A DNA stretch of 64,000 bases from a virus. Under the pieces are notes generated by a model. That model searched no databases, was not told where the DNA came from, and saw only the letters and a list, made by a program, of their open reading frames with translations. Below are positions 22,345 through 31,785 of this stretch, piece by piece. Every line of letters starts with the position of its first letter. The first letter of the stretch is position 1. The stretch is taken from positions 100,393 to 164,392 of IMG/VR virus record IMGVR_UViG_3300042539_000280; one strand, 5' to 3'. Made by a program: the position numbers and the translations under genes.

Positions 22345-24051
22345 TTAGACTTTCACATACTTTGAGGGATCAAACTTATCTTTGGAAATACGACGAACTT
22401 TACGTTCTGGATCGTTTTTACCTGTTACTTGAATGGTCTTAGAAGGACCTTCAACACCAAGACCGGCCTTCACCTGGGTAGAAACCTTACGTTTCATGAT
22501 ACGAAAAGCAGATGCCTTCTTGACAGAACCCATGGCTTCGTCCATTTGTTCTTTCTTCTTGGCCTTCCATGCGGTTGCAAAAGCAATAGACTTTTCCTTG
22601 GCGGTTAGACCGTCCTTGGAATAACCCTTCTTGATGTGTTTGACCATACGTTCAAACTTGGCACCTGGAGGTGCTTTTTCTTCTAGTCTATTCATAGCCA
22701 TTTGTATACCAGCGGCTCTTTTGTTAGCAGTCTTTCTTTCTTTTGGAGAAAGATCAGAAAGATATGGATCCTTTGCCTTACCAACTAATGTATCTAGTTG
22801 CTTACCAGCCTTCTTTTCATATCTTGCTACAGTTGATCGCTTTAGTTCATCAATCTGTTCATCTTCCATAAGACCCTTTGTATGAAAGTGTCTTTTCATA
22901 GCACGACGGATTTCACCTTTATGAACATCTCCACCCATATGCTTGGAGATAGCAGCGTCACGTTCACGAGTTGACTGACCGCCTACCTGTCCTGGCGCAG
23001 TCTTAAATGCTTTGATAATATCATCATAGCGTTTTTCTTTACTCTGCTTGATTTCATCAATCTGTTCTTTCTTTTCAAAAGATCCATGCTTTGAATACTC
23101 ATTGCTGTCCTTGCCATAACCATGACGACGAGCCATAGACTTTAGTTGTTCCTCTGATTTACCAGCGAACTTCTTAGCCTTTTCTTCTGGTGTCATGTTG
23201 GCAATACGCTGCTTATGCTTGATAACAGAAGCAGGCATACGACCTTCTTCAACAGTTTCTTCCATATAAGGATGCTTAGGAGCAGAGGCACCAACCTTTG
23301 CTTTACCTGTCATCTTCTTATGTGCTAGAGAGATACCCTTTTCACGGGTCTTTTCTCTACGGCCGGCGGCCTTGGCATCGTCAGAAGTGGCCGCAGGATA
23401 TTGACCTGGGTTCTTCTTGAAATGCTTGATATCACCTAGTTCCTGTTCAGCACCTTTACGATAACGAACAAGTTTACCTAATGATACCTCGTTTAGACCC
23501 TTTTCGGAATCCGCTACTGCTTCTTTGTTACCCTTCTTCTTTTCATCAGAGGTAACATCGTGCATTGGTTCCTTTTCAGCACTACGTTGGCTCATGGTTG
23601 CCTTGTCATCGGCACATTCTTTCATGGTGATTTCGGCCATGTCTAGCATCTTGTCTAGTTCGGCCTTATCAACAACCTTAGCCATGCATGAGAACATACC
23701 AAGCATACCTCTATAATCAAAGAATAGGTAATACTTTTCTGGTACTTCACGAATGAACTCACCGGAGTCATTCATGCCCATCTTCTCACCAAACTGTACC
23801 ATTTCATATACCTCAATACCCTTATGACCTTCAAGGAAGGTTTTCTTGGGTAGAATGATACTGAAATATGCCAACGCCTTTGACACCTTACGGAGAGTAA
23901 TGTAAGGGGTCACATGAGAGCGTGAACAAATGCCGGAGAGAATGGCATTGATCTGATCACGAACTGCCTCGTTACGAAGATCAAAATTGCCATCCTGAAC
24001 CATTGCGGTTGGAAGAACTTCCTCACTTATAAATTTTTGGAATGATTTCAT
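22345..24051 (-). CDS. Capsid-targeted, repeat-bearing virion protein (predicted)
   Basis: 568 residues. The start at 24051 (AGGAG eight bases upstream) gives MKSFQKFISEEV, close to the T4 capsid-targeting peptide MKTYQEFIAEA, including the (I/L)xE site cut by the prohead protease. After a folded part (1-150) the protein is Lys-rich and disordered with repeats EQIDEIKQSKEKRYDD, EQIDELKRSTVARYEK and EQMDEAMGSVKK, each carrying an I/L/M-D-E site. Likely a packaged head protein. The exact role is unknown. Confidence 0.65.
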   Translation of the reverse strand: MKSFQKFISEEVLPTAMVQDGNFDLRNEAVRDQINAILSGICSRSHVTPYITLRKVSKALAYFSIILPKKTFLEGHKGIEVYEMVQFGEKMGMNDSGEFIREVPEKYYLFFDYRGMLGMFSCMAKVVDKAELDKMLDMAEITMKECADDKATMSQRSAEKEPMHDVTSDEKKKGNKEAVADSEKGLNEVSLGKLVRYRKGAEQELGDIKHFKKNPGQYPAATSDDAKAAGRREKTREKGISLAHKKMTGKAKVGASAPKHPYMEETVEEGRMPASVIKHKQRIANMTPEEKAKKFAGKSEEQLKSMARRHGYGKDSNEYSKHGSFEKKEQIDEIKQSKEKRYDDIIKAFKTAPGQVGGQSTRERDAAISKHMGGDVHKGEIRRAMKRHFHTKGLMEDEQIDELKRSTVARYEKKAGKQLDTLVGKAKDPYLSDLSPKERKTANKRAAGIQMAMNRLEEKAPPGAKFERMVKHIKKGYSKDGLTAKEKSIAFATAWKAKKKEQMDEAMGSVKKASAFRIMKRKVSTQVKAGLGVEGPSKTIQVTGKNDPERKVRRISKDKFDPSKYVKV

Positions 24052-24066
24052 GTTCATCACTCCTTA

Positions 24067-27610: not shown

Positions 27611-29632
27611 TTATTTAGTATATTTCTTTTTTCTTCTGGATCCAAATAATGATTTCTTTTCAAATTCTGCTGCTGTAGCATTTTGTCGAACATCATCATT
27701 TCCAGTGGTTGCAGGTACCGATGACATAGTTCCTGAGTATGGATCGTCTAAACTCTCCATTCTCACCAACTTTTCGGCAGTCTCTTTCATCTTTTGTTCT
27801 GAAAGAGAACCATAACGTGCCTTGAAACGCTTTTTGGTTTCTTCACTCTGCATCCAACGATCTAGTCTTTGTCTGCTAATCTGTCTATCAAGACCGGTTA
27901 AATCAATTGCTTGATTATCACCGAATCCAGGTCCTTTTGGAAGGCCTGCTTCATCGCCTATTCTGTCAGCACCAATAGGTGCCGCAGATGGGCTTCTTAC
28001 TGTTTTCTGTTTCAAATCTAATACTCTCATAGGTTTGGGTGGACCAGGTTCTTGACCTGGGGTGTCTTGTGCATATCTATCTGTTAGTTTCTGGGTTCCC
28101 CAGTTACCTGCACCACCAACCAAAACCTTTCTATTGTTTGGAGAGAAGTCAGTATATCCCTCCAACATAGCCTGGAATTTACGATCATTATCAGTTGTAA
28201 CAAATTCATCAATCTCGGATGTTACCGAGTCAATTAGTTTTTGGTATGTTTCCTGAATAACTTTTTCGGATTGGTTTAGGTCTAAGTCATTCTTGACTTC
28301 AATGACCTTTTCAAATAACTGGTCGTATTTGTTTAGTGCGTCTTGTGCAGACTTCCACTTACCAAAGCGGACATTCTCTGCAATGACACGGCCTTTTCCA
28401 GCACGAGCCTCGTTTCTTAGTTTTGATACCTCGTTGCTGGTATTGACAAATACCATAATAGTTTCATAACCTCTGGCATCAAGTGACTCCTTGATACCTC
28501 TTGCTTTATCATAATCGAATGAACCATTGATGACTACATTACCTTCTAATGTAATCTTATGAAATTCGTCAGCATTTACCTCTGTAAATCCACATGGTAG
28601 AATTGCCTCTTTTAGAATCTTATCTTTACCAGAACCTGGTGTTCCAGCAAGAATGATGGCCTTTTCGGTCACATACTGCATATCGAAATAACTTGGATTC
28701 AAACTACCAAAATAACGCATTACCTTACCGGCATCTGCGTTGGCCTCGTTTTCAATCTTAGAACCGGTGGCACCTTCTTTCTTGATATCTTTACCAAGAC
28801 GACCATCAAGGTTCTGCTTATGATGAACCAACTCATGTGCTACTGAACGGAAGATATCCATCGGATGACGGTTCTTAGTTGCAACTCTAACCAATTTTTC
28901 ACCAGGTGAATAAGAAGCAAATGATGGTTGATTTACTGGATTCTTATCTCCACTTTCATCTGATCCCATGTATTGAAATTTTGGTCTTTCATCGATACCA
29001 AGATGGGCACAAGTAAAGTCAACGAATGACATCAACTTGTCATGAAATTCTTTTCTTGTCATACCACTGGTATCTTCTTTTAGAAAGGCACGAGTGGCGG
29101 TGAATATCTTTCGTGCTAGGGTCTTATCTTTGGCGGCAGATGCCTTGGCAAATGTGGCAAAGTCACCCTTGCGAACGGCTGCACGAAGATCGGTACCAGA
29201 AATTCCCTTCTTACGGGCACCTGATGACACGACCTCAAAATGTTTGAATGGATAATGAATCTTTGGATTGAAATCTTTGGCGGTTCTTGGTTTTACATAC
29301 TTAGTAAGTGATGTTCTAAACTCTTGAACACGGTCGTCACCGACAACAAATGTAACATCTTCATAACCTTCATCTGCTAGTTTCTTAGCAATAGCAAATG
29401 CGGTTTTCATCTTTGGATCATCCACAAAATTTACACCAGGGAATATCTGACGAAGAAACGTCATTTTCTCTCGTGGTGAAAGTGGATTTTTGGACGGATC
29501 ATGTGATTGGGAGGTATAGATACGGTGTTCGGCACCTTTTCTCTGTGCTAACTTTACCGCATATGTAATTAGTTCTGCATGGCCTGTGGTTGGCGGATTA
29601 TAACGGCCAAATGTGAATACAATCTTTTTCAT
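27611..29632 (-). CDS. Nucleotidyltransferase-metallopeptidase-kinase fusion
   Basis: 673 residues in at least three parts. 1-180: cytidylyltransferase-like nucleotidyltransferase with PPTTGH (13-18) and SGTDLR (145-150). 187-320: zinc peptidase-like with HELVHH (H266, E267, H270) and a later ENEANAD ligand region. 323-470: P-loop kinase with AGTPGSGKDKI (329-339), resembling polynucleotide kinases. 480-673: disordered tail. The link FLKE at 183-186 looks like a prohead-protease site, so the chain may be cut into enzymes. Late virion cargo is inferred. Confidence 0.75.
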   Translation of the reverse strand: MKKIVFTFGRYNPPTTGHAELITYAVKLAQRKGAEHRIYTSQSHDPSKNPLSPREKMTFLRQIFPGVNFVDDPKMKTAFAIAKKLADEGYEDVTFVVGDDRVQEFRTSLTKYVKPRTAKDFNPKIHYPFKHFEVVSSGARKKGISGTDLRAAVRKGDFATFAKASAAKDKTLARKIFTATRAFLKEDTSGMTRKEFHDKLMSFVDFTCAHLGIDERPKFQYMGSDESGDKNPVNQPSFASYSPGEKLVRVATKNRHPMDIFRSVAHELVHHKQNLDGRLGKDIKKEGATGSKIENEANADAGKVMRYFGSLNPSYFDMQYVTEKAIILAGTPGSGKDKILKEAILPCGFTEVNADEFHKITLEGNVVINGSFDYDKARGIKESLDARGYETIMVFVNTSNEVSKLRNEARAGKGRVIAENVRFGKWKSAQDALNKYDQLFEKVIEVKNDLDLNQSEKVIQETYQKLIDSVTSEIDEFVTTDNDRKFQAMLEGYTDFSPNNRKVLVGGAGNWGTQKLTDRYAQDTPGQEPGPPKPMRVLDLKQKTVRSPSAAPIGADRIGDEAGLPKGPGFGDNQAIDLTGLDRQISRQRLDRWMQSEETKKRFKARYGSLSEQKMKETAEKLVRMESLDDPYSGTMSSVPATTGNDDVRQNATAAEFEKKSLFGSRRKKKYTK

Positions 29633-29806: not shown

Positions 29807-30547
29807 TTATATTTTTATATTTGTGTTATAAACGTTCCTGTCATTTCCAAAGTCAGTCAACCAATTTACTCCGGTGAGTCCAGTTTCTCTAATATCTTTA
29901 CCTTTTTGTATGACGCCGATCAGATCACCAAAATTCGATACTAATGCATATCTTCTTTTTTGTCTATCTGGTGTAATATTTATAATATCAGCAAACAAAT
30001 ACATATTTTCTTCTTTTTCTTTTAGTATGACTTCACTATATAATTTTCCCAATAAAAACATTCCAGATATACAGGTCACATCGTGACCATAGTATTCTAC
30101 ACGACAATTATGAACAATGTTCTGAATTAATCTTTCTAAGATTACGGCACCAGGTTTTGCAATCATAAAATTATTTTGAACTACTAACCCTTGTGATTGC
30201 CAATCAAAATGGGCCCTAGGAGCACAGAAGTTGTATTTTTCAAAAAACTCCATATCAATGTCTGACATCATTTGGATATGTAAATCAACATATACACCTC
30301 CATACAAATATAAAAGACATGCTCGGGCTAAGTCACATTTGAAGGCATACGGATTCAATTTTTTATAGGAAAGATAAACTTCTTCTGAGAAATTATTAAG
30401 TAGTATATCTTCTATCTCTTTTCCGGAATATAAATGATAATCTCCTGGAATACATTCTCTAACACTGTCACAACATCTTTCAGTAATTTTAGGTAAAATT
30501 TTAGGAATATTATTATCATCATTTATCAAAATTTGGTGTATTTTCAT
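29807..30547 (-). CDS. GT32-like glycosyltransferase
   Basis: 246 residues with the 'sugar-binding region containing DXD' layout: FKCDLARACLLYLYGGVYVDLHI. The DXD motif reads D88-L-H90, so the second aspartate is replaced by histidine, which may change metal use or inactivate it. The gene is AT-rich compared with neighbours, a sign of recent transfer. Target unknown; a virion protein or host surface sugar is possible. Confidence 0.75.
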   Translation of the reverse strand: MKIHQILINDDNNIPKILPKITERCCDSVRECIPGDYHLYSGKEIEDILLNNFSEEVYLSYKKLNPYAFKCDLARACLLYLYGGVYVDLHIQMMSDIDMEFFEKYNFCAPRAHFDWQSQGLVVQNNFMIAKPGAVILERLIQNIVHNCRVEYYGHDVTCISGMFLLGKLYSEVILKEKEENMYLFADIINITPDRQKRRYALVSNFGDLIGVIQKGKDIRETGLTGVNWLTDFGNDRNVYNTNIKI

Positions 30548-31785
30548 TATTTACCCCAGTTTTTCACCGCCAAAAAGTTTGCACGACTAAATTCCATTCT
30601 GTCAACCAATTTGACTGCATCGCCACCTGTGGACCATGCTGCCACATATCCTTCTGGTGTGGTTACTTTATAACCACCGTCGGCAGTATGTAAGAATGTG
30701 CCAAGATCATTCACCTGATTGAACTTGTGAATGAGTAGCATCTTGGCCTCTACCAATATTCTCTGTAAATCAAAAATCATTTTGAGGTGAGAAGCATGTT
30801 GACGATACCAGCGGAGAATCATATCTCTTTCTTGGATTCGCTTTTGTTTGGTAGCAGGCATCTTAGCAGTTTCTATGTGCTTGGTATATTTATCACCAAC
30901 CCACTTTATAAGTTCTGCGGTATATCCTTTACCATATGACTGACCAGCACGGACTTTCTGGTTATTGAAAGTCATAATGTCAATACGGTATGTGGAATTG
31001 GAAGCAATCTCATTGAACATGCTGGCAGGGATGGACCTGAATAGTGAACCTGCTTGTGATAGTAATGAGGTAAGTTTAGCGTTTTCGGTCTTGGTTAGTG
31101 TAGCACGACCAGTAACATCGGAGAATTTGTTTGATCTAAACCAAACGTTTCTATTCTTTCTTAGACCACTGATATCAACATCAAAGTGTGTCTGTAATGT
31201 GTCCATAGTTTTACCATAATATGATGTATGAAACACAATACCCATCTGTGCAGCCATTACCTCTTTGGCCATAGCGGAGTCTACAGGTACGGCATATGTA
31301 ATGGTGTTTGGTCTGAAAGTAATATATCTCTTACCATCAATGGTCTCTGTCTTGAGGTCAGACTTAGAGAACATAAAGTCACCGTGAATGATGCCTTTGA
31401 TACCTAGTGCAGGGAGATATTTTAGTGCCTGCGATAGTTTATCAGCAAGACCGCCAGTATGATTGGCACGAATGTCGGCCTCGGTGTAATTCAGTTTGGA
31501 ATTTTTAGCAAATATAGATTTAGAACCAACAAAGAACTTACCATTTTCAGGATTGATACCAGCATATAGTGCCGGCGCACCATCGAACTTGGTTCTAAGG
31601 ATAAGTGCCTCGGATAACAGGTCATTCTCGTCCTTGATGGCAAACATATCTTTCAATGAGATTAGAAAGTTGATTGCGTTACGGGTGCCCGCTACACCAC
31701 CTTCCAATACGGCATCTTCAATGTGAGTAAGATGACGGTCTTTTTCGGCTGCTGCTTCTTTGAGATATTGGTTGAGTCGGATCAT
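30547..31785 (-). CDS. Ligase-fold (KxDG) protein with capsid-targeting start
   Basis: 412 residues. It opens MIRLNQYLKEAAAE, like the T4 capsid-targeting peptide with an LxE cut site. LRTKFDGAPALYAG at 63-76 matches the KxDG nucleotidyl-lysine motif (K66, D68, G69); GIIHGDFMF at 131-139 and GIVFHTSYY at 182-190 sit where motifs III and IV of ligases would lie. The family is conserved in T4-like marine phages without proven activity. A packaged RNA/DNA ligase is a reasonable hypothesis. Confidence 0.65.
   Translation of the reverse strand: MIRLNQYLKEAAAEKDRHLTHIEDAVLEGGVAGTRNAINFLISLKDMFAIKDENDLLSEALILRTKFDGAPALYAGINPENGKFFVGSKSIFAKNSKLNYTEADIRANHTGGLADKLSQALKYLPALGIKGIIHGDFMFSKSDLKTETIDGKRYITFRPNTITYAVPVDSAMAKEVMAAQMGIVFHTSYYGKTMDTLQTHFDVDISGLRKNRNVWFRSNKFSDVTGRATLTKTENAKLTSLLSQAGSLFRSIPASMFNEIASNSTYRIDIMTFNNQKVRAGQSYGKGYTAELIKWVGDKYTKHIETAKMPATKQKRIQERDMILRWYRQHASHLKMIFDLQRILVEAKMLLIHKFNQVNDLGTFLHTADGGYKVTTPEGYVAAWSTGGDAVKLVDRMEFSRANFLAVKNWGK

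Follow-up and report, generated by a model that had tools for sequence, protein, structure and literature searches.

Several described systems come close to the locus considered here. The internal head proteins of T4 (IPI-III and Alt) carry a leader and are processed by gp21, the prohead protease, which is reported to cut after L/I-x-E (PMC9026906). The T4 capsid protein gp23 is reported to lose 65 residues (PMC9958956). Another precedent is offered by the polyvalent proteins encoded by phages and by conjugative elements, in which unrelated enzyme domains, a zincin included, share one phage protein. It has been proposed that these proteins are injected and that embedded peptidases process them; the class as described draws its nucleotidyltransferases from the Pol-beta group and its kinases from the protein kinases (Iyer et al. 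2017, PMC5512222). The cyanophage-core "cytitidyltransferase" T4-GC190 (syn9 gp184, P-SSM4_155) belongs to a group reported from virions (PMC3037559). Finally, NadR fuses a HIGH nucleotidyltransferase to a P-loop kinase (PMC9503650).

Here, we show that a 673-aa open reading frame encodes a predicted nucleotidyltransferase (D1), zincin (D2) and P-loop kinase-like domain (D3), followed by a tail (D4), in a single chain (Table 1). The frame lies on the minus strand, which the original prediction had left unstated, in a window of 64,000 nucleotides that spans bases 100393-164392 of a virus record (164,392 bases in all, possibly incomplete). The original prediction had read a nucleotidyltransferase, a zinc peptidase and a P-loop kinase in one chain, and this is confirmed: the frame is open, and near-full-length relatives exist at 84-85% (L001 and L002), 65% (L004) and 55% identity (L005). 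A further copy (L003) is 100% identical and presumably comes from the same genome. We think it likely, on sequence grounds, that this chain is a polyprotein carried as cargo in the head of a T4-like phage and cut by a gp21-type protease into modules that are ejected into the host. As with the T4 internal head proteins, there are L/I-x-E type sites, a gp21 homologue, leader-bearing single-gene relatives and enzyme cargo (Alt in T4); in contrast to them, several enzymes occupy one chain with sites between, and no leader stands at its start. The chain resembles polyvalent proteins in joining unrelated enzyme domains, but D1 and D3 are unlike the nucleotidyltransferases and kinases described for that class, and processing would fall to a separate prohead protease. 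T4-GC190 is a separate gene, about 380 aa long, whose product has a leader-like N terminus of its own, whereas here D1 is fused to D2-D3-D4.

Table 1. Features of the 673-aa chain and its neighbours, in window coordinates.
Feature	Position	Strand	Basis
Whole ORF, putative polyprotein, 673 aa	27611..29632	minus	open frame, relatives
D1, residues 1-186, predicted HIGH-superfamily nucleotidyltransferase	29075..29632	minus	Pfam, PHROG, alignment
D1/D2 junction, candidate site L-K-E (E186), strict L/I-x-E	29075..29083	minus	conserved in 43/43
D2, residues 187-320, zincin-like domain	28673..29074	minus	alignment, AlphaFold model, VIA
HELVHH, predicted zinc-binding motif, residues 266-271	28820..28837	minus	invariant H, E, H in alignment
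D2/D3 junction, candidate site V-T-E (E323), off strict L/I-x-E	28664..28672	minus	junction counts
D3, residues 324-477, zeta-toxin/polynucleotide-kinase-like P-loop domain	28202..28663	minus	Pfam Zeta_toxin, model, Foldseek
P-loop GTPGSGKD, residues 330-337	28622..28645	minus	alignment
D3/D4, candidate site M-L-E (E491), off strict consensus	28160..28168	minus	weak, controls up to 47/50
TPGQ module, residues 505-539	28016..28120	minus	78 matches in fetched ORFs
C-terminal module, residues 590-624	27761..27865	minus	91 matches, each in an ORF with D1, D2 or D3
DUF6267 protein, neighbour, leader-like N terminus	30547..31785	minus	Pfam 8.2e-102; leader pattern
Leader-like first 10 residues of DUF6267 protein	31756..31785	minus	leader pattern
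Leader-like residues 4-13 of ORF 22345-24060	24022..24051	minus	leader pattern

The genomic setting is that of a T4-type phage. The same record encodes a gp21-type prohead protease (Peptidase_S77, PF03420, 2.1e-37; T4 gp21 in the PDB, 4e-23) and a gp23-type major capsid protein, in which LNE|A at residue 52 aligns with E65 of T4 gp23 in a gappy part of the alignment. The ORF is flanked by T4-type replication genes (DNA polymerase, UvsX, gp41-type helicase, primase, thymidylate synthase and ribonucleotide reductase) and by an endolysin gene. In syn9 and P-SSM4, the equivalent stretch, the gp41-primase interval, holds a "cytidyltransferase" gene. A search of the record found D1, D2 and D3 nowhere outside the polyprotein ORF. 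Photo_RC was not found in the record; this gene thus gives no indication of a cyanobacterial host. Five window proteins gave no match in a defence library, and the whole 673-aa protein used as query gave none among solved structures.

Several side observations concern the neighbours. DUF6267 proteins, to which the window gene 30547-31785 belongs, have in common invariant K-x-D-G, E-G-(Y/F)-V and K-(L/I)-(V/I)-(D/N)-R; these resemble ATP-dependent ligase motifs I, IV and V. DUF6267 had no match among PDB profiles at E <= 1, and our search of the open-licence literature found no paper that names it. The glycosyltransferase-like gene 29807-30547, which like a second glycosyltransferase-like gene at 55426-56178 matches PHROG 28262, lies between the DUF6267 and polyprotein genes; it looks like an insertion, because it is absent from that place in L002.

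From its Pfam and PHROG matches and its motifs, D1 is predicted to be a HIGH-superfamily nucleotidyltransferase. Residues 7-151 match Pfam CTP_transf_like (27.5 bits, above the cut-off of 21), and the PHROG match is to cytidyltransferase (4.3e-41). Both T-T-G-H and S-G-T-x-x-R are found, with G17 and H18 invariant in 34 aligned rows. The best solved relatives are phosphopantetheine adenylyltransferases, at only E 0.002. Cyanophage homologues are 36-41% identical, with P-SSM4_155, which carries the label T4-GC190, at 41%. D1 is common among cultured phages (530 records), and its homologues in the jumbo phages K64-1 and PBECO4 are small separate genes. T4-GC190 has been detected by mass spectrometry in S-SM1 virions (PMC3037559), and cytidylyltransferase or NMNAT-like proteins are reported from virions of S-SZBM1 (PMC9146016), S-CREM2 (PMC10665884) and S-SCSM1 (PMC9602691). 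These are D1 orthologues or similar proteins, none of them the fused chain, and the S-CREM2 authors caution that such enzymes may be carry-over in purified virions (PMC10665884).

D2 combines HELVHH with a conserved E-N-E-A-N; the H, E and H and both E are invariant in 28/28 aligned members. Its confident AlphaFold model (mean pLDDT 86.7, pTM 0.83) has one N-terminal helix, three strands and C-terminal helices, and this helix-sheet-helix core, bearing HExxH and a downstream Glu, leads us to predict that D2 is a zincin. The best VIA match is Wss1 (Z 8.7, at the edge of informative; 103 residues, rmsd 3.3), and PprI and selecase are other best fold matches. Foldseek found no match to the model at E <= 0.001, Pfam gave no family for the window's own D2 at E <= 1, and the D2 profile had a single match among solved structures (E 0.77). 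As to a link with zincins of the polyvalent clades, MPTase-PolyVal is matched by 4/28 members (best E 0.016) and Peptidase_M78 by 15/28 (best 0.00082), and the window's D2 matches neither. D2 occurs in 7 cultured-phage records, and as its own small gene in L006 and L011. A screen of bacterial and archaeal genome contigs gave 17 pattern matches, 0 of them confirmed, which does not imply absence. On a separate note, a 907-aa protein of Flavobacterium phage immuto (L010, 3159-5882), annotated as an NMN adenylyltransferase, has a D2-like zincin inside it and, by eye, a Pol-beta-like N terminus.

D3 is predicted to be a kinase-like P-loop domain of the zeta-toxin/polynucleotide kinase type. It matches Pfam Zeta_toxin at 27.9 bits (cut-off 22.3), as do 44/44 aligned members, 43/44 of which also match AAA_33. 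In Foldseek searches with its model (mean pLDDT 91.6), polynucleotide kinases come out best (1.6e-6), followed by adenylate and UMP/CMP kinases. The three domain calls of the original prediction are thus supported. Its further claim that all key motifs are intact holds for D1 and for D2 (HELVHH and the Glu) but is too strong for D3, because its P-loop has GSGKD where GSGK(S/T) would be expected, and because the acidic residue that follows strand 2, though present here, has moved or been replaced in several close relatives. D3 is found in 8 cultured-phage records. Cultured relatives that encode it as a standalone gene include Methylophilales phage Melnitz (gp118, with a D1 gene in L176) and Pelagibacter phage HTVC008M (gp129, with D1 as gp130). 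We also observed a D3-like P-loop domain inside a 778-aa protein of Agrobacterium phage Atu_ph07 (L012, 4221-6557), the N-terminal part of which resembles, by eye, the two preceding genes; these sequences look ADP-ribosyltransferase-like to us.

The tail had been called long and disordered. Plain disorder does not describe it, since the TPGQ and C-terminal modules recur in relatives; the one TPGQ match outside ORFs with D1-D3 is HTVC008M gp128 (L007). As an aside, DUF6321 modules recur C-terminally, in polyproteins as well as in small genes with leaders (L066, L103, L108).

The main evidence for processing is where a short motif falls. At D1/D2, distinct segments carry [LIVM]xE in 43/43 cases and [LI]xE in 41/43, with seven kinds of middle residue; control motifs score 1 to 35 of 43. 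At D2/D3 the figures are 51/51 and 32/51 (controls 14 to 28), and at D3/D4 50/50 and 27/50 (controls 17 to 47). D3/D4 is given no weight, because its linkers are long and control motifs occur in as many as 46-47 of 50. Each of the 22 dereplicated proteins has [LIVM]xE at all three junctions, against linker-shuffle expectations of 11.0, 5.5 and 11.0. Where D1 is absent, the motif still lies within 25 residues ahead of D2 in 17/17 cases (strict form 16/17). Thus, as putative cleavage sites, the D1/D2 junction is strong, D2/D3 good but often V-x-E, and D3/D4 uninformative. One caveat is that the sequences are related, so these counts are not independent trials. Another is that the 673-aa protein holds 14 copies of [LIVM]xE, most of them within domains, so the motif alone proves nothing and its position does. 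The internal FLKE site that had been picked out is real, lying at D1/D2, but relatives keep L-x-E and not the F. We also compared local-alignment ends between relatives (552 clustered points from 76 query ORFs) with random points. Ends fell near [LI]xE 143 times against 112 expected and near [LI]xD 134 times against 90; since [LI]xD is enriched more, the test does not discriminate and we rejected it as support.

A second line of evidence comes from relatives encoded as single genes. In 49/50 distinct standalone D3 genes, the N-terminal leader closes with this motif, which lies exactly 14 residues ahead of the P-loop. D2-D3 proteins have it at 14 in 26/50 and at 6 or 7 in 23/50 (missing in 1); the 673-aa protein belongs to the latter, V-x-E group. 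[LI]xE occurs within the first 30 residues of 47/51 standalone D3 proteins versus 54/237 other ORFs. A stricter leader pattern, whose positions 4 and 7 (both aromatic/aliphatic), 8 and 10 are those reported for T4 IPIII targeting and processing (PMC9026906), is found in 29/51 standalone D3 proteins versus 76/642 other ORFs and 5/4,130 internal methionines; the 76 are an unclean negative set, because they are mostly DUF6267 and HAD neighbours of the same kind. Standalone D2 has a leader in L092, L093 and L011, and lacks one in S-SRM01. A looser pattern matches 5/109 window genes, some by chance. Leaders thus sit on neighbours and single-gene relatives and not on the 673-aa chain, where a capsid-targeting leader was sought at the start and not found; D1 begins the chain directly. 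The leader pattern also starts a CCA-adding enzyme (L117, 1999-3639) and an adenylate kinase (L150, 4305-4886), a side observation hinting that tRNA or nucleotide enzymes may be head cargo.

The spacing rule was replicated on loci fetched after the pattern had been seen (69/80 used; 14 D3 ORFs dropped as seen before or duplicate). Among 55 distinct D3 domains, most of them in D1-D3 fusions without the zincin, all 55 have [LIVM]xE 13 or 14 residues before the P-loop (strict [LI]xE 54/55), and none has it at spacings 4-12. Shared descent explains part of the spacing-13 class, because neighbouring residues are conserved too; in the spacing-14 class of these loci the middle residue is of 11 kinds, while L is present in 91% (another accepted residue in the rest) and E is kept.

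The architecture itself recurs in relatives. Among 5,942 ORFs of fetched loci (the best 80 of 582 and best 80 of 529 relatives), D1, D2, D3 and D4 were found in at least 86, 104, 158 and 90 ORFs. At least 55 complete ORFs, all from uncultured phages, have the order D1-D2-D3-D4; this number counts some contigs twice, because the loci overlap, and falls to 22 on dereplication. Other arrangements among complete ORFs are D2-D3-D4 (at least 17), D1-D4 (8), D1-D3 (5), D2 alone (5) and D3 alone (59), each a lower bound. Modules are also swapped or inserted. In 7 fetched ORFs, drawn from 5 contigs, a HicA module flanked by two motifs occupies the D1/D2 junction (Pfam above cut-off in both tested). The D1 slot of several D2-D3-D4 proteins holds an NMNAT-like domain (TIGR00125, 33.9 bits, cut-off 27.7; NMNAT-specific models below cut-off). 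Three further modules were seen: a ParB-like stretch, supported by PHROG in L080 only; in L092, a HAD domain following D2 (PHROG polynucleotide kinase, 6.9e-8); and a Pol-beta-like stretch in L163, below the Pfam cut-off. Among cultured phages (INPHARED), 0/532 matching records had a single match over 80% of the chain. This fits the earlier statement that no described protein has this domain order. That statement needs qualification: on its own, D1 corresponds to a cyanophage core protein already known and detected in virions (PMC3037559), and phage proteins that carry several enzymes and are injected have been described as a class (PMC5512222). Within the open-licence literature searched, we found no description of this architecture or of prohead-protease sites between enzyme modules. 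Each ingredient is already known; it is enzyme modules split by head-protease sites in one T4-like chain that appear undescribed in that literature.

What else could such a chain be? One alternative is NAD salvage of the NadR kind, in which the nucleotidyltransferase and P-loop kinase would act as adenylyltransferase and riboside kinase, restoring NAD after a host NAD-depleting defence, with the zincin an added module. NadR does pair a HIGH nucleotidyltransferase with a P-loop kinase (PMC9503650), D1-D3 proteins without D2 exist (5 distinct, and many of the 53 internal replication cases), and some relatives have the NMNAT-like domain in the D1 slot. However, the Zeta_toxin and AAA_33 matches place D3 in another P-loop family: AAA_28, the NadR kinase family, is absent from the 14 Pfam families matched by the 44 D3 members at E <= 0.01, which leaves a direct relation of D3 to the NadR kinase unsupported. 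D1's nearest solved structures, distant as they are, are phosphopantetheine adenylyltransferases; NAPRTase was found in 0/1 records, the one searched being this possibly incomplete one; a zincin sits between the two domains; and the cutting motif between D1 and D3 would part the pair. We consider this alternative unlikely.

It is less likely still that the chain is a polyvalent protein cut by its own zincin, in the head or after injection. Self-cutting zincins have been proposed for polyvalent proteins (PMC5512222), and the catalytic residues of D2 are all kept (28/28), yet the junction motif is also kept where D2 is missing, in 4/5 distinct D1-D3 linkers and 49/50 standalone D3 genes, and D2 itself occurs as a separate small gene. 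Slightly less probable again is an ordinary cytoplasmic multidomain enzyme, never packaged, in which hydrophobic-x-E would simply mark the helix ends of linkers. The motif is indeed short and frequent, and packaging of the 673-aa protein is our inference; a fixed spacing with a variable middle residue, the enrichment of N-terminal leaders and the detection of D1 orthologues in virions (PMC3037559, PMC9146016) argue against it.

We therefore return to the head-cargo polyprotein. The domains, their conserved order, the junction motif, the gp21 homologue and the leader-bearing single-gene relatives are directly computed. The specificity of T4 gp21, the leader determinants and the virion detection of D1 orthologues are carried over, by analogy, from published work (PMC9026906, PMC3037559). 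In this proposal, the chain would be made late and taken into the prohead core, where the gp21-type protease would cut between modules, directly following hydrophobic-x-E. Nucleotidyltransferase, zincin and P-loop kinase, now apart, would remain enclosed with the DNA and be ejected with it on infection of the next host; there they may act before phage gene expression, most likely on nucleotides, RNA ends or host proteins (counter-defence or takeover). We infer packaging, cutting, ejection and all activities of the 673-aa protein. The original prediction of a virion polyprotein releasing separate enzymes is thus well supported, by the motif conserved at junctions and the leader-bearing single-gene relatives, and as a reading of sequence it stops short of proof. 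Against it stand the lack of a leader on the 673-aa protein and the departure of V-T-E at D2/D3 and M-L-E at D3/D4 from strict L/I-x-E. The shortness and frequency of the motif, the relatedness of the sequences, the looser leader matches in the window and the carry-over caution (PMC10665884) also weigh against it. A core-targeting element might be provided by the C-terminal helix of D1, which bears L-x-E, or by the C-terminal module. The company kept by the chain (PNK-like kinase, HAD, ligase-like DUF6267, nucleotidyltransferases) suggests a predicted role in nucleotide or RNA-end work, with NAD chemistry the main alternative (PMC9503650).

Finally, we tentatively extend this proposal to a wide group of T4-like phages, as a possibility that we hold with less than even confidence. 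In these phages, the head-maturation protease may also process polyproteins, releasing a reshuffled repertoire of injected enzymes: single genes would carry leaders and fusions keep junction sites, allowing modules to be swapped freely. The PNK-like kinase, the HAD domain akin to PNK phosphatase, ligase-like DUF6267, the CCA-adding enzyme, NMNAT-like and Pol-beta-like nucleotidyltransferases, HicA and the zincin might then form a nucleotide and tRNA repair-and-attack kit, delivered before the first phage gene is read. If this is true, mature N termini would be predicted directly after hydrophobic-x-E, which for standalone D3 means the G of G-x-x-D-P, next to the leader E. T4-style head processing and polyvalent injected proteins, so far separate ideas, would become joined, and hypothetical proteins abundant in aquatic phage data would become a readable list of injected enzymes, each cargo being the module between two sites.
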